From Sphingomonas sp. IW22 (GTDB lineage Bacteria; Pseudomonadota; Alphaproteobacteria; Sphingomonadales; Sphingomonadaceae), in the NCBI RefSeq assembly GCF_041321155.1, contig NZ_JBGGWB010000001.1, positions 868,001-932,000 on the forward strand: a stretch of DNA of 64,000 nucleotides. The letters run 5' to 3'. Under the pieces are notes generated by a model. The model was not told the DNA's origin. It worked only from the letters and a program-made list of their open reading frames with translations, and did no database searches. Both the position numbers and the translations under genes were made by a program. Numbering within the stretch: position 1 is the first letter of the stretch; each line of letters begins with the position of its first letter. Positions 12,648-24,849 of the stretch are shown here, piece after piece.

Positions 12648-12722
12648 GGCCCCTTCGTCTAGCGGTTAGGACGCGGCCCTTTCACGGCTGAAACACGGGT
12701 TCGATTCCCGTAGGGGTCACCA
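12648..12722 (+). tRNA. tRNA-Glu(TTC)
   Basis: A 75-nt cloverleaf. Acceptor stem GGCCCCT (12648-12654) pairs with AGGGGTC (12712-12718), discriminator A and encoded CCA end at 12722. The anticodon stem is CGGCC/GGCTG around loop CTTTCAC, giving anticodon TTC at 12681-12683. The T-loop GTTCGATTC is standard. A 7-bp hairpin (TTCGCAC 12725-12731 with GTGCGAA 12747-12753) lies just downstream and may mark the transcript end, though no T-run follows. The rest of the gap to 12896 shows nothing recognisable. Confidence 0.97.
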
Positions 12723-14465: not shown

Positions 14466-15578
14466 CTATCCCTCGACCAAGGGGCCGTGGATCGGCAGAA
14501 ACGCCGCACCCAGCGTGATGGGCGAGCCGCGCAACCTGGATACCCGAACGGGTGGGCGGCGCTGGTTTACCCCCGTGGCGAGCGGGGCACGATCCAGCCG
14601 GTCGGCGATCCCACGCAGGATAGCACCGGGCAACGGCCCCGCCAGAACGATCGCACCGGGGTCGAGAAGGACGAAGGCCGTGTTGCAGACAAGCTCAAGC
14701 TGTTGCGCCGCACGATCCATCCAGCAGGCGATAACCCCCGCCTGCTCCGGCGCATCGGCGTCGATTTCAGCCACGGAGAAAATCTCGCATCCGCTGGCCC
14801 GCAGGCAGGACAAAAGGTCCAGCGGGCTGGGGCGCGGCCGGTCGCCGGGGAACAGGCAGCCAATCTCCCCGGCCGTGCCGAACTGACCGCGCACCAGCCG
14901 TCCGTCGACGATCACGCCCGCACCGATGCCAAAGCCGAACAGCAGGACGACCGCGCTCGACACCTCACGCACCAGACCGCCCACATGGAATTCGGCGATG
15001 GCAGCAGCATTGGCGTCGTTTTCGATCCAAAGCGGCCAAGCCATTTCGCCCTGCAGGATTTCCCGCAAATCCGCCCCGCGCCAGTCGGGCATGTTGTCGA
15101 CCACTTGCCACTGATCCCCCGCTGGCGACAGCGGCGGACCGGGTACGGCAATGCCGATACCCAGCATCCGCCGGCCCAACAGGCCGTGGCGGTCGACCAG
15201 TTCATGGGTGCATGCACGCACGCGCCGCGCAAAGTCGCGTGGGTTCAGCGGCCCGCATTCCTCATGATGAGTGGCGATGGTGCCGCCTGCATAATCGACG
15301 AGTGCGATGTCGAGCAGCCCCTTGTGCGCCGTCGCGCCCACGGCATAGCCGGCGCCCGCCGCCAGTCGCAGCGGCACCGCCGGTCGACCGCGGCGCGCCT
15401 GTACGCTGTCGGGCACTTCCTCGATCACGCCCCAGGCGGTCAGTTCGCGCGACAGCTTGGTCAGGGCGGTCGGGCTGAGTTCCAGCCGTGCCGACAGGGC
15501 AGAACGCGATAGCGGCCCCGCCCTTCTTAACTCGCGCAACAGACGCCGCTGGTCGATGTCGAAAACGGGCAGGTGCAT
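14466..15578 (-). CDS. ROK-family transcriptional regulator
   Basis: A 370-residue protein. The N-terminal winged helix-turn-helix (about 8-65: RRAGPLSRSALSARLELSPTALTKL) precedes a ROK sugar-kinase-like domain with a phosphate-binding-type GATAHKGLLDIALVDYAG, the WIENDANAAAIAEF motif and GTAGEIGCLFPG. In place of the usual ROK zinc motif CxCGxxGC it has DLLSCLRASGCE, so the zinc site looks degenerate. Members of this kind (NagC/XylR/Mlc-like) repress sugar uptake genes and respond to sugars or sugar phosphates. It is divergent from the TonB receptor at 15709, the most likely target. Confidence 0.85.
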   Translation of the reverse strand: MHLPVFDIDQRRLLRELRRAGPLSRSALSARLELSPTALTKLSRELTAWGVIEEVPDSVQARRGRPAVPLRLAAGAGYAVGATAHKGLLDIALVDYAGGTIATHHEECGPLNPRDFARRVRACTHELVDRHGLLGRRMLGIGIAVPGPPLSPAGDQWQVVDNMPDWRGADLREILQGEMAWPLWIENDANAAAIAEFHVGGLVREVSSAVVLLFGFGIGAGVIVDGRLVRGQFGTAGEIGCLFPGDRPRPSPLDLLSCLRASGCEIFSVAEIDADAPEQAGVIACWMDRAAQQLELVCNTAFVLLDPGAIVLAGPLPGAILRGIADRLDRAPLATGVNQRRPPVRVSRLRGSPITLGAAFLPIHGPLVEG

Positions 15579-15610
15579 GGCAGGCTTTTAACGCCGCCCA
15601 ACCGTTTTTC

Positions 15611-15630
15611 TATTTATTAAAGTAAAAATA
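15611..15630. promoter_or_regulatory. AT-rich inverted arms between the ROK regulator and TonB receptor genes
   Basis: TATTT (15611-15615) and AAATA (15626-15630) form inverted arms within the most AT-rich stretch of the region (about 15605-15635). ROK regulators of the NagC/Mlc type bind AT-rich imperfect palindromes of this general shape, so it is a candidate operator and core promoter. Confidence 0.4.
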
Positions 15631-15708
15631 ATTAAGACTGTCACATTGCGAACCCAACGGGGCCCGGCCGCCGCAACGACGGCGCCGAGATTCGATCCTG
15701 GGGGTCCC

Positions 15709-18201
15709 ATGCTGAAGACTGTACTTGCCACCGGCACCATGCTGTTCGCGCTGAGTGTCGCCTCTGTCGCGCCCGCACAAGCCCAGACGGGCAACAGCGA
15801 AACCACAGCAGCGCAGGACCCGGCGGACGGTGAAGCGAACGACATCATCGTCACCGGCTCAACGCGCGCCCAACGCCGCTTTGATGCGTCCTACGCGATC
15901 AACACCGTGTCGCAGGAAGACTTTGAAAAGATTGCGCCGGTCAATTTTGCCGACCTGATCGGCCAGTTGCCTGGCTTTCAAACCGAAATCACCGGCGGTG
16001 AGGTCCAGAATATCTATCGCATCCGCGGCCTGCCGAACGACGGCGGCTTTGTCAGCTTTCAACAGGACGGCCTGCCGCTGTTTCACGAAAATGACGGCGT
16101 GTTCTTTCGCGGCGACGCGATCCTGAAGCAGGATCTGATGACCGAGCGGGTGGAAGTCGTGCGCGGCGGCCCCGCCCCGGTCTATGCCAGCTATTCGGGT
16201 GCGATCATCAACGCAATCACGGTGACCGGCACCGATACGCCGCGCGGTCGTGCTCAGGTGACGCTGGGCGATACCGGGCTCTACCGGCTGGACGCGGTTC
16301 AATCCGGCCCGCTGGGCGGCAACACCTATTATGCGGTGGGCGGGTTCCTTCGCTATCACGACGGCTATCGCGACAACGGCTTTCCCAACGACAAGGGCGG
16401 CCAGATCCGCGCCAATATCAAGCATGATCTGGACAATGGATCAGTCAAGCTGAACTTCAATTACGTCAACGATCACAACGTGTTCTATCTGCCGATCCCG
16501 ACGGCCGACCCGCGTGACCCCAACGTCTCGCTCGACCCGTATATCGACTATTTCGAAGGCACGATGAACTCGCCGGCGTTTCGCAACGTCAATCTGAAAT
16601 ATCGCGACGGCGCCGGCGTTATCCAGAACCGCACCAGCGACCTGTCCGATGGCCGGCATATGCAGATGGCCAATGTCGGCATCCAATATGATGCCGATTA
16701 TGACGGCTGGCTGGTTTCCGCAAAGGCGGGATACACCCAGGGCAAGCTGGACTTCACCGCCTTTTATTCGACCACCAATCCTGCCGACGCGACCAGTTTC
16801 GCCAATGGTTATCTGGCACGTGCCAATACGGCGTTCGGCCCGGTTTCGCGCTTTGGCTATGTGCTGGCGGGGACGAACACCGTCTATGATCCCTATGCCG
16901 CGTCGGGCCTGGTGATGCAGGGCCAGTACCGCGACATTCATTCCAACTTCTATTCGGCGCAAGCCAATCTGTCGGTCGCCAAGCGGTTCGAGACCGGCTT
17001 CGGCAGTCACGATCTGAAGCTGGGCCTATATGGCAGCCTGTATGGCGAGGATAGCCGGACCACCTATCAGAACTATCTGATCGAGGTCGCGGGCAAGCCG
17101 CGCACGCTGGACCTGCTGGCCTATTCCGCGACTGGTAGCGTCTTGGGCCGGGTGACCGACAATGGCGTGCTGAACCATGCCGCCACGCTGAATCAGGGCG
17201 ATTCAGACGCAAAGATGATCGCCGTCTTTGCCAACGACACCTGGGAAATCGTGCGCGGGCTGCGCATCGATGCGGGCATCCGTCATGAACGCTATGACTA
17301 TCAGGGCTGGGCCGCGCTGACCACGCAAGCCAATCTGGGCGACGCCACGACGCTTGCCGACGATACCACCCGCGCCTTTACCGGCACGATCGTCAATGCC
17401 GAGTTGTCGCCCAATGTCACCAACTGGACGGTTGGCGCCAATTACGATTTCAGCAACCAGATCGGCCTGTATGGCCGCGCCTCTCACCTTGAGACGCCGC
17501 CCAATGTGCAGACCGTGATGAGCATCAATCCGACGATCATCACCACGGTCGCGGACCAGTATGAGGTGGGGCTGAAGCTCGCCTCTGGCCGGTCGTACCT
17601 GTATATCACGGGTTTCTATACGAACTTTGACCCGCTCAACGCTTCGTTCCTGGCCTTTGACCCGACGACGGGCCGCAACGACGTGAACGTGCCTTTCATC
17701 GGCGAAGCACAGGTCAAGGGCGTGGAATTCGACGGCGCGTGGCAGGTGACGCCCTGGTTCACCCTGAACGGCGCACTGACGATCAGCGACCCCAAATATC
17801 GCAATTTCGAAAGCGCGACGGGCGCCGATCCCGAACAGGCAGAAGGCAACCAGATCGTCCGCCAGCCAAAGGTTTATGGCAATATCCGGCCCAGCTTCGA
17901 CTTCAACACGGGTGGTACGGATGTGTCGATCTACAGCCGCTATACCTATATGGGTAAGCGTTATGTCGACCTGTACAACAACACCGCGCTGCCGGAATAT
18001 GGCACGTTCGGCGCGGGCATCACGCTGCGGCGCGATGGTTGGCAGTTGCAGTTGGTCGGCGACAATCTGTTCAACGCGCACGGCCTGACCGAAGGCAATA
18101 CCCGCACCGATTCGTTGAGCGGTCAGGGCAGCGCCGAGGCGATTTACGGGCGGCCCATTTTCGGCCGCAACTTCCGCCTGGTCGTCGGCAAATCGTGGTG
18201 A
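15709..18201 (+). CDS. TonB-dependent outer-membrane receptor
   Basis: An 830-residue receptor. Signal peptide at residues 1-25 (ending APAQAQ), a TonB-box-like segment DIIVTG, a plug domain about 55-165 (FADLIGQLPGFQTE, YRIRGLPNDGG, ERVEVVRGGPAPVY) and a beta-barrel ending in NFRLVVGKSW, with the usual terminal aromatic. It would import a large substrate with energy from TonB-ExbBD. The ATG at 15709 begins the signal peptide; the upstream extension of the frame has no such feature. It is coupled to the next gene by a GTGA overlap and divergent from a ROK regulator, suggesting a carbohydrate-linked substrate. Confidence 0.93.
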   Translation: MLKTVLATGTMLFALSVASVAPAQAQTGNSETTAAQDPADGEANDIIVTGSTRAQRRFDASYAINTVSQEDFEKIAPVNFADLIGQLPGFQTEITGGEVQNIYRIRGLPNDGGFVSFQQDGLPLFHENDGVFFRGDAILKQDLMTERVEVVRGGPAPVYASYSGAIINAITVTGTDTPRGRAQVTLGDTGLYRLDAVQSGPLGGNTYYAVGGFLRYHDGYRDNGFPNDKGGQIRANIKHDLDNGSVKLNFNYVNDHNVFYLPIPTADPRDPNVSLDPYIDYFEGTMNSPAFRNVNLKYRDGAGVIQNRTSDLSDGRHMQMANVGIQYDADYDGWLVSAKAGYTQGKLDFTAFYSTTNPADATSFANGYLARANTAFGPVSRFGYVLAGTNTVYDPYAASGLVMQGQYRDIHSNFYSAQANLSVAKRFETGFGSHDLKLGLYGSLYGEDSRTTYQNYLIEVAGKPRTLDLLAYSATGSVLGRVTDNGVLNHAATLNQGDSDAKMIAVFANDTWEIVRGLRIDAGIRHERYDYQGWAALTTQANLGDATTLADDTTRAFTGTIVNAELSPNVTNWTVGANYDFSNQIGLYGRASHLETPPNVQTVMSINPTIITTVADQYEVGLKLASGRSYLYITGFYTNFDPLNASFLAFDPTTGRNDVNVPFIGEAQVKGVEFDGAWQVTPWFTLNGALTISDPKYRNFESATGADPEQAEGNQIVRQPKVYGNIRPSFDFNTGGTDVSIYSRYTYMGKRYVDLYNNTALPEYGTFGAGITLRRDGWQLQLVGDNLFNAHGLTEGNTRTDSLSGQGSAEAIYGRPIFGRNFRLVVGKSW

Positions 18202-19358
18202 GGATCGCGCCGATCGTCGCGACGGCGGCGCTCTTCCTCGCAACCGCTCCGGCTTCGGCCGGGGCGGTCCGCGATGTGAAGATGGAGATGCTGGCCGAGC
18301 GGCTGTTCCCCCTGTTCGGCGCATTGGCCAGCCAGCCCGAACGTCAGGCGGCGCTGATCGCCCGCTCCGAAATCGCTGCACTGATCGCCGCGCGGCAAGC
18401 GGCACGCGCGGCCTGTGGCGACGACCTGTCCTGCATCGCGCGGGCGGCTTTATGGTCACAGGCGGATGCAACGGTGCTGACGCGCGCACTGGCGGCGACG
18501 CCGGGTTTGTCGACGCCAGGCGACGATGCGGCGGCGCAGGCAGAGCGCGAGATTGCGGGCATCAATGCCATCGTTCGCACCTATGCGCTGGGCCAGTTGC
18601 CGCCCTATCCCGAAATCGACGGTGCAGGCATGCTGGACCCGCAAGAGGCCAATGCACGGTTGCAGGCGGCGGTCTGGCTGGCGCGCGCGCCGCGCGCAGG
18701 ATCGCTGGCGGCGCTGGACCCCAGTGTCGAGCTGGCGCTGGCGCTGCTGGACGCGCATGACCGCACCGACGCGATCGGCTTTGAACCGATCGACCGTGGG
18801 CCGAACGCACCGGCGATGGAGCGCGCGCGCACGCTCGACTGGAGCGCCTATCGCTATCCGGCGATGATCGTCACCGGCGTCGGCCCCGAAACGCCCGACA
18901 TGCCCATCAGCGCATTCGGAAAATATCATCTGCGGCTGGCGGCGGAGCGGTTCGCGCGCGGTGATGTGGGCGTCATCATCCTGACCGGCGGCCGCGCCCA
19001 TCCCCGCGCCACCCGCTTTGCCGAGGCAAAGGAGATGCGCGACGCACTGATCGAACGATACAAGGTGCCCGCCGCCGCCATCGTGATCGAACCTTATGCC
19101 CGGCACACCACCACCAATTTGCGTAACGCCACCCGGCTGATGATGGCGATGGGTGCGCCGATCGACCGCGATGCGCTGATCGTCTGCAATCCGGGTCAGA
19201 GCGAGTATATCGCCAGCGCCCGCTTCACCGCCCGCAACCAGCAGGAACTGGGCTATCAGCCCGGCCGAATCGGCCGGCGGCTGTCCCCCACCGAACTCGC
19301 ATTCCGCCCCTCCCCCCAATCGGTGCGGATCGATCCGCGCGACCCGCTCGACCCCTGA
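18198..19358 (+). CDS. YdcF/ElyC-like (DUF218) protein with signal peptide
   Basis: A 386-residue protein with an N-terminal signal peptide (about residues 1-23, ending ASAGA) and a C-terminal DUF218 domain (about 220-350). The domain shows VTGVGPETPDMPISAFGKYHLRLAA, IILTGGRAHPRATRFAEA, and the EPYARHTTTNLRNA motif, all typical of YdcF/SanA proteins. The role of the family is poorly defined; some members act in envelope integrity. The start is GTG at 18198, overlapping the TonB-receptor stop as GTGA; a second in-frame GTG at 18195 is equally possible. Its coupling to the receptor suggests it acts on the imported substrate or its uptake. Confidence 0.8.
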   Translation: MRIAPIVATAALFLATAPASAGAVRDVKMEMLAERLFPLFGALASQPERQAALIARSEIAALIAARQAARAACGDDLSCIARAALWSQADATVLTRALAATPGLSTPGDDAAAQAEREIAGINAIVRTYALGQLPPYPEIDGAGMLDPQEANARLQAAVWLARAPRAGSLAALDPSVELALALLDAHDRTDAIGFEPIDRGPNAPAMERARTLDWSAYRYPAMIVTGVGPETPDMPISAFGKYHLRLAAERFARGDVGVIILTGGRAHPRATRFAEAKEMRDALIERYKVPAAAIVIEPYARHTTTNLRNATRLMMAMGAPIDRDALIVCNPGQSEYIASARFTARNQQELGYQPGRIGRRLSPTELAFRPSPQSVRIDPRDPLDP

Positions 19359-19383
19359 ACGCCAGCCACAACGGAGCCAGCCG

Positions 19384-20376
19384 ATGCGCCCCTTGTTTTT
19401 TGCGACCATTGCCGCGCTGTCGGCGCTGACCCTTGCGCCGGCCCCGGCGCTTTCCTGGGGCGGGACCGCGCACTCGGTGATCGATCGCGCCGCGATCGAG
19501 GCGATCCCCGATGACGGCCCGGTCTTTCTGCGCCGCTATGCCGATTACATCGCGGCATCGGCATCGCTGCCCGACAGCTGGCGCGGCAATTCGGAAAACT
19601 TCTCGAAAATCGCAGAAGACCCGAACCACGGATGGTTTCGGGAGCAATTCACCTTTGTCCGTCCGATCCCGCGTTCGCGTCACGAGTTCGTGCTGGCGCT
19701 GTTCAAGCAACATCAGCGGATCAAGGCGACCGATCCCGCCACCGCCGCGCGCACCAATGTGCGCTGGGCGGGCACGCTGCCCTATGCCGCAATGGAGGCA
19801 TATGAGCGACTGATCGTGTGCATGCGCCATGTCCGCCGCGCCCGGGCGGAGGGCGGCGACGCCAGCGTGCCAGAACAGCATTGCGCGTTCCACGCCATCC
19901 GGCTGGGTCACTATATCGGCGACGGTGCGCAACCGCTTCACGATTCGGTGAACAGCGACGGTTGGCGCGGGGACAATCCACACGGCTATACCACCGATCG
20001 CTCGATCCATGGCCGGTTCGAAAGCCGCTTCGTCGACGGCATCGGTCTGAAGGTCGGCGACATCGCGCCGCTGATCGACGCGCCCGGTCACCGGACGGGC
20101 GACATGTTCGATGCTGTGCTCGCCTTTCTGGACCGCGCAGGCGACAAGATGGAAACGGTCTACAAACTGGAAAAGCGCGCCGGATTCGCCGATTTCAGCG
20201 ACAGGGATGTGCGCCGCCTGGTCTATGCCCAGACGGCGGCAGGCGCGACGATGCTGCGCGACATGCTGTGCCGCGCATGGACCGAAAGCGCAAAGCCCCC
20301 GGCAGAGGTGGTGCCCAGCCCGCTCGACTTCGACAATCCGCGTTTCAATCCTGAGACCGGATCGGCACCCGGCTGA
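19384..20376 (+). CDS. S1/P1-type nuclease-like zinc enzyme, exported
   Basis: A 330-residue protein with a signal peptide cleaved before WGG, so the mature N-terminus is Trp, as in S1/P1 nucleases where it ligates zinc. Further ligand positions fit: WGGTAH (H6 of the mature protein), HYIGDGAQPLH (H-x3-D-x5-H) and IHGRFES (H-x3-E, where D is usual). This fold, shared with zinc phospholipase C, hydrolyses phosphodiesters of nucleic acids or lipids. It would work in the periplasm. It follows the YdcF-like gene by 25 bp. Its 3' end overlaps the convergent transporter gene by 32 bp. Confidence 0.75.
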   Translation: MRPLFFATIAALSALTLAPAPALSWGGTAHSVIDRAAIEAIPDDGPVFLRRYADYIAASASLPDSWRGNSENFSKIAEDPNHGWFREQFTFVRPIPRSRHEFVLALFKQHQRIKATDPATAARTNVRWAGTLPYAAMEAYERLIVCMRHVRRARAEGGDASVPEQHCAFHAIRLGHYIGDGAQPLHDSVNSDGWRGDNPHGYTTDRSIHGRFESRFVDGIGLKVGDIAPLIDAPGHRTGDMFDAVLAFLDRAGDKMETVYKLEKRAGFADFSDRDVRRLVYAQTAAGATMLRDMLCRAWTESAKPPAEVVPSPLDFDNPRFNPETGSAPG

Positions 20377-21772
20377 GGCGTGCGGCACGGCGGGTGAGCG
20401 CGACGATTACCCGCCCGTGACGAGCGTGTCCGATATCGAAACGCCGCAGCAACAGGACCGCGCCGATGCACCCCGCCAGCGGCACCCCCAGGCCGACCGC
20501 CAGCATTCCCGTCCGCACCGCTTCCGCCTGGACCTGCCCCGGCACATAACCCAGCCAGCCCAGCGACCAACCGATCAGGACGCTCCCTGCCGCGCCGCTG
20601 GCCTTCACCGCGACAAGATAGCCCGCGAACAGCCCCGTCTCCATCCGTCGCCCGTGGCGCCAAGCGACGAAATCGACCGTGTCCGCCAGCAGCCCCCAAG
20701 GCAGCATGTAGACGCTGGCAAAGCCAAAGCCGATCACCACGGCACAACCGACAAGCATGTCGGGTCGGTCGATGCACAGCGCGAACAGGATCAGCCCCAG
20801 CGCACTGACGCCATAGCCCGACGCCAGCAACGCGCTCTTGTCCAGTCGCCCGGTCAGTGCGGTCCAGCCGAGCACCCCCGCAAACTGGCCTACGGTCAAC
20901 GCCAGCAACAGCGACCGGGCCAGATCCGGGCGATCGAGGACATAGGTACAGATATAGATCAACATCCGCCCGAAACTGGGCATCGCCAACCCGGTGATCA
21001 GCGCGATCAGCATCATACCGATGACCAGCCGGTTGCGAAGAGGAATATCGATCCCGTCCCTTGCCACGCCTGCCCCATGGCGAAGCGCGGCGGGTCGGGT
21101 AGTGGCGCTGCTGAGCAACATGGTCGCGACGAACAGCGCGCCGCCGACAGAACCGGTGATCGCCAGACCCTCGAACTGCCCGTCGCGTGCCGCCTGTTGC
21201 ACCAGCGGCGTCAGGATCATCGCAACCGCCAGCGAGGAGGCACAGCTGAACAACAGCCGATAGCCCGAAATGCGACCGCGTGTGCGGCTGTCGCTGCTCA
21301 ATTCGGCCATCAGCGCATTGTGGGGCACATCGATCACGGCATAGGCGCCGCGAAACGCCAGCAGCGCCAGCGCCAGGATCAACCCCTGCCGCACGCCAAG
21401 TGCCGGCAGAGCGTAAAGGCTGGCAAATGCCAGCCCGCACGGCACCGCGCCCACCGATACCAACCAGCGATAACCACGGCCAAAGCGCCGTAACCTAATC
21501 AGCAAGGTTGCGGCAGCGAGATCGAAAACGAGGTCACCGGCCACCGCCCACAACATCAGCGTCCCCGCGGCCGCGGCGTTCAGGCCCAGCAGGTCGGTCA
21601 GCAGGAACAGGATCGTCAGATCGGCCCCGGCAAAGACGATGCCCTTACCGAAATTGCCGGAGGCGTAGGCGAGCAACCGCACCTCGCCGCCCAATCGCGC
21701 CGCAGGGATCGACCGTGCGATGCGGCTCCGAGCGCGGCCGGGGTGAAATGGAATCGTGGCGGTAAAAAACAT
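20345..21772 (-). CDS. GPH-family (MelB-like) MFS transporter
   Basis: A 475-residue membrane protein with about 12 predicted helices. Features of the glycoside-pentoside-hexuronide:cation symporter family are visible: LLAYASGNFGKGIVFAGADLTILFLLTDLLGL at the first helix (spread over about 32 residues), YAVIDVPHNALMAELSSDSRTRGRISGYR after helix 4, and the later YMLPWGLLADTVDF segment. Such carriers import sugars or glycosides with Na+ or H+. ATG 21772 was preferred; an in-frame ATG at 21823 would add 17 residues. With the ROK regulator and TonB receptor it could form an uptake route across both membranes, though it is on the opposite strand. Confidence 0.85.
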   Translation of the reverse strand: MFFTATIPFHPGRARSRIARSIPAARLGGEVRLLAYASGNFGKGIVFAGADLTILFLLTDLLGLNAAAAGTLMLWAVAGDLVFDLAAATLLIRLRRFGRGYRWLVSVGAVPCGLAFASLYALPALGVRQGLILALALLAFRGAYAVIDVPHNALMAELSSDSRTRGRISGYRLLFSCASSLAVAMILTPLVQQAARDGQFEGLAITGSVGGALFVATMLLSSATTRPAALRHGAGVARDGIDIPLRNRLVIGMMLIALITGLAMPSFGRMLIYICTYVLDRPDLARSLLLALTVGQFAGVLGWTALTGRLDKSALLASGYGVSALGLILFALCIDRPDMLVGCAVVIGFGFASVYMLPWGLLADTVDFVAWRHGRRMETGLFAGYLVAVKASGAAGSVLIGWSLGWLGYVPGQVQAEAVRTGMLAVGLGVPLAGCIGAVLLLRRFDIGHARHGRVIVALTRRAARLSRVPIRSQD

Positions 21773-22671
21773 CTGTACTGGGGACGCCCGGACTTGCGGT
21801 TCCGGAGCGTCGTACCGCGTCAATCTTTCAGCAATGCGACGCGCAAGCGGGACACTTTTGGCGGCGCCCCAAGAGCGGGCGGCGCGTCCGACCTGAGGCG
21901 AAGCGGCGACGCACTGGCATCGGTGCCAGCGGCAAGACCGAGCGTATCAGTCAGCTTTGAGGGCGAGGCGATCACAAGCTCTGCTGACGCCGGTGCCAGG
22001 GCCGCGCTTCATTTTGTGGATAAAGTTGTGGACATCTGCGGCGAGTATCTGTGGACGCCGATCGACGGGGATATGTACTCTGGGCAAGGCGAACACGCGC
22101 CTCCTAGTACCGACGCTGGCGCCGGCGCACCGCATGCTCGTGTGGATAACCCTGTGGGTATATATGCCAGCCGAGTTGTGGGCCATTATCTAACGCAGGC
22201 CGTTGGCCGAGACCAACCTAGCGAGGACGACGCCGCTATGCGCGCTTGTGGATAACTGCGTGAACATCCCTGTGGTAATTTTGGGGATCCGATCGACGCA
22301 GGGTCATCTTCAAGGCTCAGCGACCTCACACCCCGCGATGGCGGCACGGCCATTCGCGCCGTGCATAGTCATGTGGATAAATCGGTGGACTTGGTGTTGG
22401 CTGATCTGTGAGCGACATCGGTGAACGCTCACTGCTAGCGGCCCCGCGACCGGCTCATGCGCTTTGATATGCTGAAGACCCCAAGCGGCACTCGCTCTTG
22501 TGGATAAGGTTGTGGGCATGTGCGTTGGCTATTGTGTGGGGAGACGATCAACGCGCGTTCGCGGCGGCAATCCGCCCACGCCGCCCTAGCATGGCGCCAC
22601 TGCTCCGCCTTTGCGAATGGTCCTGTGGAAAACCATGTGGACTTCCCTGTTGGCGATTGCATGGACTGCGA
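21773..22671. other. gene-free 0.9-kb region: candidate oriC or DnaA-binding (datA-like) locus
   Basis: No convincing gene occurs between the transporter start and the LysR stop. The right-hand two thirds hold an ordered array of DnaA boxes. Perfect TGTGGATAA (TTATCCACA on the other strand) occurs at 22015, 22141, 22247, 22372 and 22499, and TGTGGAAAA at 22624. All lie in one orientation, at intervals of 126, 106, 125, 127 and 125 bp. Bacterial DnaA binds TTATCCACA, and clusters like this are found at replication origins and at DnaA-titrating or inactivating sites such as E. coli datA. No long AT-rich unwinding element is obvious; the left part (21773-22010) holds only a CTGGCA/TGCCAG hairpin at about 21917-21932. 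Alphaproteobacterial origins are usually not next to dnaA, so flanking genes do not decide. Confidence 0.7.
22015..22668 (+). repeat. six diverged ~125-bp tandem units with 12-bp-phased DnaA boxes
   Basis: Each unit starts with a strong box (+0). A second box follows exactly 12 bp later: TGTGGACAT 22027, TGTGGGTAT 22153, CGTGAACAT 22259, GGTGGACTT 22384, TGTGGGCAT 22511, TGTGGACTT 22636. A weaker third box lies at +35/36 in most units: TGTGGACGC 22050, TGTGGGCCA 22177, TGTGAGCGA 22407, TGTGGGGAG 22535, CATGGACTG 22660. At about +24, units 3-6 show another degenerate match (for example TGTGGTAAT 22271, TGTTGGCGA 22648). After the third box most units keep a version of CGATCRACGC (22059, 22290, 22544). 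The rest of each unit is diverged, so selection appears to keep the boxes and their phasing. Confidence 0.8.
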
Positions 22672-23577
22672 TCAGGGCAGGTTCGCGGCCAGAAACTCTA
22701 CAAACACCCGCACACGTGCGGGCATGTTCGCGCCGCCGACGAATACGGCATGGATCAACTCCACATCGCCGGGATTGAAGCGTTCGAGGATCGGCGTCAG
22801 CCGCCCGTCCGATAACTCCCGCGCCACGCTGAACGTCCCCACCCGCGCGATCCCCAAGCCATAGGCCGCGAGTTGCCCCAGGGTTTCGCCGTTATTGGCC
22901 TCCAGATTGCCCGTCACCGTCAGCGAAAAGTGCCGCCCCTTGCGCAGGAAAGGCCAGACCGGCTCGGCGCGCCGAAAGTTGAAGTTCAGGCAGTTGTGGC
23001 GGAGCAGGTCCTCCGGTGTCTCCGGCTCTCCAAACCGCGCGAGATAGTCTGGGGATGCAACGATCACCCGGCGCGTCTCGCCCAGCTTTCGAGCCGTCAA
23101 ACTGCTGTCGGGCAAAGGACCGAAACGCACGGCAACATCGGCCTCCCCCGCCGCGACATCGACCAAGGCGTCGGTCAATGCAATGTCGACCAATATGTCG
23201 GGATAGAGTGCCACGAACCGATCGAGCAGCGGCACCACGCATAGCCGCCCGTGCGACAGGGCAGCGCTGACGCGTAGCCTGCCGCGCGGTGCGCCCTGAT
23301 CCGCGATCCGTTGCTCGGCATCATCAAGATCGGTCAGAATGCGCCGCGCCGCCTGAAAATAGGCCTGCCCCTCAGCCGTTAGCGTCAGCGCGCGTGTGGA
23401 GCGCAGCAGCAAGCGCACGCCCAGCCGTTCCTCGATCCGGTCGACCGCGCGACTGACTGCCGATGGGCTCATGGCAAGCGCACGCCCCGCTGCGGAAAAG
23501 CTGCCATGCTCGATAATGGCCGCGAACAGGGCCAGCGCGCGCGCCCGGTCCGCGCCGCCCTTCATCTTTGCGTCCAT
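22672..23577 (-). CDS. LysR-family transcriptional regulator
   Basis: A 301-residue regulator. Helix-turn-helix at about residues 10-65 (FAAIIEHGSFSAAGRALAMS, PSAVSRAVDRIEERLGVRLL) and a LysR substrate-binding domain of the aminoarabinose/CrgA-type group (AALSHGRLCVVPLLDRF, VAVRFGPLPDSSL, HNCLNF). It is divergent, with an 87-bp gap, from an MFS efflux-type gene, the usual arrangement for a regulator and its target. Start ATG 23577 was preferred over an upstream ATG at 23598 because the conserved region begins shortly after it. Confidence 0.9.
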   Translation of the reverse strand: MDAKMKGGADRARALALFAAIIEHGSFSAAGRALAMSPSAVSRAVDRIEERLGVRLLLRSTRALTLTAEGQAYFQAARRILTDLDDAEQRIADQGAPRGRLRVSAALSHGRLCVVPLLDRFVALYPDILVDIALTDALVDVAAGEADVAVRFGPLPDSSLTARKLGETRRVIVASPDYLARFGEPETPEDLLRHNCLNFNFRRAEPVWPFLRKGRHFSLTVTGNLEANNGETLGQLAAYGLGIARVGTFSVARELSDGRLTPILERFNPGDVELIHAVFVGGANMPARVRVFVEFLAANLP

Positions 23578-23664
23578 CGCAAAAGTCCTTCGCGTCAATC
23601 GGCGCTATTCCAATGGGTGCGGCGCCGCCATTTGTGCACGAATATAGCAGCAGGAGCATGATTC

Positions 23665-24849
23665 ATGGAACACCGGCACACGGGCACGCTTGGCCTGCTC
23701 GCCCTGGCGGTCGGCGCGTTCGGCATTGGGGTTACCGAATTCGCGCCGATGGGATTGTTGCCCGTCATCGCCAATGATCTGGGCATCTCCATCCCGACTG
23801 CGGGATTGCTGGTCAGCGCCTATGCGCTGGGCGTGGTGATCGGCGCGCCGATCATGACCCTGTCCACCGGCCGCGTTCCGCGCCGGACGCTGCTGATCGC
23901 TCTCGCCGGCATCTTCACCATCGGCAACCTGCTGGCGGCTGTGTCGGACAGCTATGGGATGCTGATGGCCGCGCGCCTGATCACCTCGTTCAACCACGGC
24001 GCCTTTTTCGGCGTCGGATCGATCGTCGCCGCCAGCCTCGTCGCGCCGGAACGCCGGGCCAGCGCGGTTGCTGCCATGTTCATGGGGCTGACGATCGCCA
24101 ATGTCGTCGGGGTGCCGCTTGCTACCTGGGCGGGGGAGCATCTGGGCTGGCGCGCGTCCTTCTGGGGAATTGCCGCGCTGGGCGTCGCGACGATGGCGGC
24201 GCTGCGCCTGACGCTGCCGCCGCTGCCGGCACCCGCCAGCGGCGATCCGTTGGCCGAATTGCGCACACTGACGCGTGGGCCGGTAGTCGGCGCGCTGGCG
24301 CTGACCGTCGTCGGATCGAGCGCGATGTTCACCGTCTTCACTTATATCGCGCCAATCCTGCGCGACGAAACCCAGGCGTCCCTGGCCTTCGTGACCGCGA
24401 TGCTGGTGGTCTATGGGCTGGGCCTGACCGTCGGTAACTGGCTGGGCGGGCGCTATGCCGACCGTTCGGTCGACCGGACACTGATCGTCACGCTGGGCGC
24501 GCTTTCCGCCATCCTCGTCGCCTTTGGGCTGTTCATGGATCAGCCGATGGTCAGCGCGGTGCTGATCTTCCTGTGGGGCGTGGCCAGCTTCGCGCTCGTC
24601 CCGCCGCTTCAGGTGCGGGTGATGACCGCCGCCTCAGACGCGCCCAACCTTGCCTCGGCGGTCAATATCGGCGCCTTCAATCTCGGCAACGCGCTGGGCG
24701 CGGCCCTTGGCGGCGGCGTCATCGCGGCGGGCTGGGGCTATCCAACGGTGGCACTGGCAGGCGCAGCGACATCGCTGATCGGGCTGCTGGTCGTTTTGTT
24801 CATGGCACACCGCGCCAGAACCGCGGACCCGCAGCTCTGCGATGCCTGA
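23665..24849 (+). CDS. MFS transporter, DHA1/AraJ-like efflux family
   Basis: A 394-residue protein with 12 predicted membrane helices. It opens with LLALAVGAFGIGVTEFAPMGLLPVIANDLG, a stretch of about 30 residues typical of AraJ/YdhP-type sugar or drug efflux permeases, followed by TAGLLVSAYALGVVIGAP and the loop TGRVPRRTLLI. Such proteins export sugars or small toxic compounds with proton influx. Control by the divergent LysR protein is likely. It has no operon partner downstream: the next features are a sulfatase remnant and another MFS gene. Confidence 0.88.
   Translation: MEHRHTGTLGLLALAVGAFGIGVTEFAPMGLLPVIANDLGISIPTAGLLVSAYALGVVIGAPIMTLSTGRVPRRTLLIALAGIFTIGNLLAAVSDSYGMLMAARLITSFNHGAFFGVGSIVAASLVAPERRASAVAAMFMGLTIANVVGVPLATWAGEHLGWRASFWGIAALGVATMAALRLTLPPLPAPASGDPLAELRTLTRGPVVGALALTVVGSSAMFTVFTYIAPILRDETQASLAFVTAMLVVYGLGLTVGNWLGGRYADRSVDRTLIVTLGALSAILVAFGLFMDQPMVSAVLIFLWGVASFALVPPLQVRVMTAASDAPNLASAVNIGAFNLGNALGAALGGGVIAAGWGYPTVALAGAATSLIGLLVVLFMAHRARTADPQLCDA

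Follow-up and report, generated by a model that had tools for sequence, protein, structure and literature searches.

The window analysed here, a 64-kb stretch of the Sphingomonas sp. IW22 genome, contains a 0.65-kb non-coding array of DnaA boxes (22015-22668) between two genes on the minus strand. On the left, a sugar transporter gene of the MFS_2 family (20345-21823; Pfam MFS_2, 8e-50) forms the end of an accessory cassette that also comprises ROK, TonB receptor and DUF218 genes and one unassigned ORF. On the right, the stop codon of a LysR-type regulator gene (22672-23598) adjoins the last unit of the array; this gene starts a second cassette and lies divergent to an MFS transporter gene (23665-24849, plus strand), which is found beside LysR in relatives too. 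Positions 14488-21686 of the window match one stretch of genome G305 at 79% nucleotide identity, and the LysR-MFS pair is located on another G305 contig. The array is situated at the junction of these two accessory cassettes. It is intergenic, and no ORF of at least 80 amino acids spans it; three ORFs of 105-170 amino acids overlap it in part, none of which was retained by the choice made on codon positions. The metabolic region containing the array is preceded by a tRNA-Glu gene (12648-12722) that adjoins a RecJ-like gene.

All boxes of the array have the same orientation (minus strand). Five of them are exact TTATCCACA boxes, starting at 22015, 22141, 22247, 22372 and 22499, and the sixth, TTTTCCACA at 22624, deviates by one mismatch. 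The start-to-start spacings are 126, 106, 125, 127 and 125 bp, four of the five not being multiples of three. These positions and spacings reproduce the preliminary description of the locus, which had listed five exact boxes and one near match in a single direction, 106-127 bp apart. In the 64-kb window, boxes with at most one mismatch occur 10 times, compared with 3.83 expected (s.d. 1.64; 100 dinucleotide shuffles, maximum 8). Both box words were searched across the assembly (4,003,234 bases in 43 contigs), which contains TGTGGATAA exactly 13 times, and the array accounts for 5 of these 13; by simple arithmetic from the other eight genomic boxes, about 0.0007 exact boxes are expected per strand of 654 bp. 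The looser pattern TTWTNCACA has 43 matches genome-wide, six of them in the array, and a reversed control pattern has 49; the genome as a whole is thus not enriched in boxes. Judged by its letters, the array would therefore be a cluster of DnaA boxes outside oriC that exceeds chance, with the approximately five predicted high-affinity boxes by which datA is recognized.

Each unit consists of more than its leading box. Unit 1 (22015-22058) combines the exact box at 22015-22023 with a second box at 22027-22035 (7/9 letters) and a third at 22050-22058 (6/9), followed by CGATCGACG at 22059. Unit 2 (22141-22185) is built likewise from an exact box at 22141-22149, a second at 22153-22161 (7/9) and a third at 22177-22185 (6/9). 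In unit 3 (22247-22290), the exact box at 22247-22255 is accompanied by boxes at 22259-22267 (5/9) and 22282-22290 (6/9), and CGATCGACG starts at 22290. Unit 4 (22372-22415) has its exact box at 22372-22380, its second at 22384-22392 (5/9) and its third at about 22407 (5/9), while unit 5 (22499-22543) carries the exact box at 22499-22507, further boxes at 22511-22519 (6/9) and 22535-22543 (6/9), and CGATCAACG at 22545. The near-match box of unit 6 (22624-22668) occupies 22624-22632 (8/9) and is followed by a second at 22636-22644 (6/9) and a weak third (4/9). All six units lie on the minus strand. Hence, the second degenerate box that had been described 12 bp on is present at exactly +12, with a gap of 3 bp, in six of six units (7, 7, 5, 5, 6 and 6 of 9 letters; background mean 2.1), and the third box, described at +35/36 in most units, scores 6, 6, 6, 5, 6 and 4 of 9 (mean 5.5 with one base of jitter allowed, the background of 2.1 being calculated without jitter). 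An additional box at +24 (mean 4.3) was not counted, because the off-ladder offset +14 scores practically as high (mean 4.2). Within 701 bp there are 20 sites with at least 6/9 letters, six of which have a partner at +11/12; 500 shuffles averaged 6.6 and 0.12, respectively, and none reached six partners. In 415,022 bases of the genome we counted 13 doublets with at least 14/18 matches, seven in the array, two in oriC and four in three near-match stretches, a comparison that is partly selected because those three stretches were chosen for their near matches. The best doublet in the scanned part of the genome (L030:9278-9298) pairs an exact DnaA box with TGTGGACAA at a distance of 3 bp, directly upstream of a gene that we take to be dnaE. 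The conserved CGATCRACGC-like element of the preliminary description fared less well: CGATCRACG is found exactly in three of the six units, at offsets from +43 to +46, but with at most one mismatch it has 161 sites in the window compared with 81 expected, and being so common it is weakened as a strong element.

Outside the boxes, the units have diverged. Ungapped identity between units amounts to 71% in the 23-bp box region, 34% upstream and 30% downstream. Nevertheless, the spacers retain traces of common ancestry: their mean local alignment score is 11.8, compared with 8.7 for shuffles (s.d. 0.47, largest 9.9, 200 shuffles), and random window segments reach 11.8 in 1% of 300 sets; the sixth spacer in this test takes in the end of the LysR gene. 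Since the first boxes of the six units retain 53 of their 54 letters while the spacers diverged, the boxes look selected, and this pattern suggests, as the preliminary description had argued from boxes retained amid diverged spacers, that the boxes are under selection. The simplest history compatible with these letters would be tandem duplication of a module of about 125 bp, followed by heavy divergence with retention of the boxes. Counted from the first box, the units lie at 0, 12.0, 22.1, 34.0, 46.1 and 58.0 turns at 10.5 bp per turn, which corresponds to a phase coherence of R = 0.96. Coherence of this degree has a probability of 0.0002 if spacings are drawn evenly from 100-131 bp; given the four gaps near 126 bp, however, about 15% of odd-gap lengths between 95 and 135 bp perform equally well. 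Because the coherence is lost at 10.4 (0.36) and 10.6 bp per turn (0.47) and is mostly due to the 126-bp period, we regard phasing of the units to the DNA helix as a hint only.

The preliminary description had left open whether the array is the chromosomal origin and had named GC skew as a check. The single genomic match to RP001 (PF03618) is at C1:1,684,192, directly downstream of one exact DnaA box and three with one mismatch. The gene upstream of RP001 is presumably hemE. In agreement, a hemE origin has been reported for Sphingomonadaceae (PMC4741004, in excerpt). Within the genus, 292 of 295 genomes match the hemE-RP001 stretch, the own genome included, as do 264 of the 264 of good quality. 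The array is located at 0.890 Mb of the same contig, 0.79 Mb from this origin. GC skew is weak and was sampled in stretches covering part of C1, one of the 43 contigs. Before the RP001 point, 11 of the 16 samples are negative (the other five at most +0.013); the sample spanning it gives -0.017, and five of the six after it are positive; near the array one 4-kb sample gives +0.005 and the others are negative. The sampled skew therefore turns at RP001 and away from the array, which shows neither a skew switch nor an origin gene context. As had been noted, an obvious AT-rich unwinding element is lacking as well: 50-bp windows placed at 50-bp steps between 21700 and 22750 have at most 48% A+T. With the RP001 origin elsewhere on the contig, the skew turn there and the conservation in 292 of 295 genomes, we consider it very unlikely that the array is oriC, and this option of the preliminary description was abandoned. 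The same holds, to a degree that leaves it hardly any credit, for an additional replication origin. Its dense boxes in a single direction would suit such a role, but an origin with DnaA boxes exists at RP001, the skew turns there, no AT-rich element is seen near the array in 50-bp windows, and no dnaA, rep or par family is encoded in the 33 ORFs scanned with Pfam.

We searched other genomes for two exact boxes separated by a gap of 88-118 bp, a pattern that requires exact boxes and so could miss decayed arrays. Such a pair is matched in 24 of the 295 genus genomes. Outside the own genome there are 24 pair loci: 17 look like the hemE origin (nine overlap hemE-RP001 matches and eight were classed by shared sequence) and seven do not, one of which sits in an open frame near its genome's origin. 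A run of exact pairs is found in this genome alone, with none in the 294 other genus genomes and none in 195 further genomes of the order, 489 others in all; in the order sample of 211 genomes (16 of the same genus, own included), any pair occurs in seven and a run only in the own genome. Consistently, when 41 genomes, the own among them, were compared by DNA similarity, the array was found in the own genome only, and the nearest four genomes compared are 80-81% identical over the hemE-RP001 stretch. The preliminary description had said that absence from close relatives would argue for a neutral repeat; at the distances covered by these genomes, no such run is seen. The orthologous neighbourhoods are likewise devoid of it. 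No array lies beside LysR in the best 29 other matches from 121 genomes (one locus ends 138 bp past the gene) or beside MFS_2 in 24 other matches in 295 genomes (two loci incomplete), the latter having at most one box each at one mismatch or fewer, and positions 21700-22700 have no significant match to the LysR and MFS_2 orthologue loci (best E 0.24).

With this sequence and geometry, this concentration of boxes and a position away from the canonical origin, the array may be a non-coding, non-origin cluster of DnaA boxes that acts as a sink for the initiator, a proposal to which we give about an even chance. By analogy, it is best read as resembling E. coli datA and the B. subtilis clusters in its action. 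We infer DnaA binding, its cooperativity, the sink function and an effect on timing, as in the following model. The array consists of six double boxes, mostly spaced by about 12 helical turns, in which a gap of 3 bp separates the consensus 9-mer from a weaker one; another weak box follows at about 35 bp in each unit, and each unit would hold DnaA cooperatively. Perhaps 12-18 DnaA molecules would then be retained at the locus, and the level of free DnaA would fall. A replication fork would copy the array about 0.8 Mb after leaving oriC, whereupon the sink would double and could help to prevent re-initiation, as proposed for the B. subtilis clusters and first for E. coli datA. Of the datA-like regulator envisaged by the preliminary description, one part stands: the anatomy supports a non-origin cluster that works like a DnaA sink. 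Identity with datA is not supported, the IHF consensus WATCAANNNNTTR being absent from 21950-22720 at up to one mismatch; a single site with two mismatches compares with 1.3 expected. Besides the missing IHF consensus, several observations speak against a sink. The run is seen in its own genome only (exact-match pattern, 489 others searched), no array stands at the best 29 LysR or the 24 MFS_2 orthologue loci, and a cassette junction would be an odd place for a cell-cycle locus.

The main rivals of the sink are a relic and, after it, gene regulation. The boxes could descend from the origin of a plasmid or integrative element, or be a functionless tandem repeat, caught at a mobile cassette junction. 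The junction itself, with 14488-21686 in one G305 stretch and the LysR-MFS pair on another contig, is in line with such a past, as are the restriction of the run to one of the genomes searched and the traces of tandem duplication in the spacers. Against this, 53 of 54 box letters have been kept between almost random spacers, Pfam assigned none of the rep, partition or integrase families to the 33 ORFs scanned out of 35 chosen in the part up to 48.5 kb (four of the 33 without a match), and no initiator gene stands beside the repeats in this ORF set, as a plasmid or iteron origin would have. The array has no phage match, and its three plasmid matches span 23-34 bp at E 0.2-0.7. Two of these come from Komagataeibacter plasmids, where they are located within a coding gene annotated as replication initiator protein A, and touch unit 6; they point toward a relic but look like chance. 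On balance, we consider a relic or neutral repeat unlikely, though a serious competitor. DnaA bound at the array might instead regulate the MFS_2 gene or block read-through from LysR and leave initiation unaffected. The array is upstream of the minus-strand MFS_2 gene and ends beside the LysR stop codon, and DnaA also acts as a transcription factor (PMC11317965, in the part available). However, 21650-22750 contains no sigma-70-like promoter (only the E. coli-type consensus was used), six units over 650 bp exceed, in our judgement, what a promoter usually needs, and the 24 MFS_2 orthologue loci (two incomplete) have no such array upstream; transcriptional control is therefore rather improbable.

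A strict equivalent of datA or DARS would go beyond a sink and switch the nucleotide state of DnaA, through ATP hydrolysis or ADP release, with a nucleoid protein placed at a fixed offset. Number of boxes and size are akin to datA (five boxes, about 1 kb, in the accessible text of PMC4585315 and PMC5295017), CGATCRACG recurs at +43 to +46 in three of six units, and an analogue in Massilia, described below, has IHF-like sites at a fixed +38. But the activity of datA requires an IHF site, according to the same portion of PMC4585315, and the array lacks the IHF consensus; we judge a strict equivalent to be quite improbable.

The sink remains our preferred reading, and comparable clusters exist elsewhere. 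A scan of named genomes for box arrays yielded at least 118 stretches; many of the further matches are Bacillota clusters that we take to be oriC. Massilia belongs to a bacterial class other than that of the window genome. Among the matches listed, two Massilia species share an array (L150:5453-6207 and the matching part of L179) of six same-direction units, each TGTGGAYAA plus 3 bp plus a degenerate box, 117-190 bp apart, beside a MotA/ExbB gene and xseA. The two species agree at 126 of 126 doublet positions, at 61 of 65 positions of the IHF-like sites and at 648 of 739 other positions, and in M. mucilaginosa the IHF-like site is found at exactly +38 from the box start in five of six units (two exact, three with one mismatch). 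Like the window array, it is thus a series of six same-direction double-box units, whereas its spacing is irregular, its IHF-like sites stand at +38 and its neighbour genes are others; by its letters it would be the closer analogue of datA. The open-access literature yielded no published DnaA-box array of a sphingomonad or of Massilia, which is a weak negative. Congeners possess non-oriC clusters with box steps of 11 or 12 bp as well, in L019 (1501-1734) and L002 next to a PAPS reductase gene, in L023 next to a PmbA/TldD gene and in L025 next to an alanine racemase gene; the number of steps is reached by 0 of 500 shuffles for each of these regions, which were chosen for their boxes. Together with the Massilia array, these ladders hint that DnaA sinks arise repeatedly. 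Three candidates were dismissed: Chryseobacterium arrays are T-rich units of another make, an Oligosphaera array is a near-perfect tandem repeat, and a 29-bp triple TGTGG motif common to many congeners was dropped because it is apparently coding, lying in a dehydrogenase-like frame (by eye, in the loci inspected).

Two further box arrangements came to light. Three exact boxes at intervals of about 100-130 bp are present in 28 viral contigs (L342-L369). In 15 of 30 loci (L312-L315, L319, L325-L327, L329, L330 and L332-L336), a CcrM-like DNA methyltransferase motif is preceded at about 0.3 kb by two exact boxes 24 bp apart, at about position 1500 in most, with GACTC (a GANTC site) between the boxes in 12 of the 15; L021 encodes a CcrM-like enzyme by Pfam. 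Control of ccrM by DnaA has been predicted for some alphaproteobacteria (PMC2877005, in excerpt).

On the basis of these comparisons, we tentatively suggest that sinks may be built, lost and rebuilt from the double-box module, with the window array as a lineage-specific, helix-phased and tandem-expanded case at an accessory junction and with the congener ladders at other intergenic sites and the Massilia DnaA-IHF array as its like; this broader scenario appears possible but somewhat doubtful. If it is true, initiator titration loci would form a convergent class with fast turnover, and the window array would give an alphaproteobacterium a datA-like locus. How widely DnaA-box clusters occur, and whether they are conserved or easily replaced, matters for models of how initiation is controlled. 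Being compact, made of countable units, remote from oriC and absent from the relatives searched, the array would offer a clean natural test of initiation.

The known systems, taken from those parts of the cited papers that were accessible, place the array as follows. Clusters of DnaA boxes that restrain initiation are known from E. coli, B. subtilis and S. coelicolor (PMC4585315). E. coli datA, located outside oriC, is a non-coding locus of about 1 kb that contains five high-affinity boxes (PMC5295017, PMC4585315); its activity depends on an IHF site between the boxes, and its location is conserved across strains (PMC4585315). Like datA, the array is a non-coding multi-box locus outside oriC on one chromosome arm. 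In contrast to datA, it has no IHF consensus between its boxes (21950-22720), and it is an even series of six doublets found in one searched genome, whereas datA is kept in place across strains. B. subtilis has six DnaA-box clusters outside oriC, and removal of all six leads to early initiation, which fits titration (PMC13220808, PMC5295017); the strong phenotype needs the removal of all six, and PMC5295017 plays down the importance of these clusters. Here, too, multiple boxes are grouped away from oriC, but six clusters there compare with a single array 0.79 Mb from oriC.

The closest parallel to the individual units, within the portion of PMC11317965 consulted, comes from E. coli ChIP-seq data. 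In vivo, DnaA favours boxes paired at a distance of 2-3 bp and, in the authors' conclusion, occupies nearly all targets as a dimer (PMC11317965). At purH, a 7/9 box lies 3 bp upstream of a perfect box, which is the layout of units 1 and 2, and same-orientation pairs 3 bp apart also occur at polA and DARS2/mutH (PMC11317965). All six units of the array follow this 3-bp doublet layout, although four have a second box that matches at just 5 or 6 of 9 letters. Whereas the E. coli pairs are single doublets at regulated genes, the doublet is repeated here in a six-fold array.
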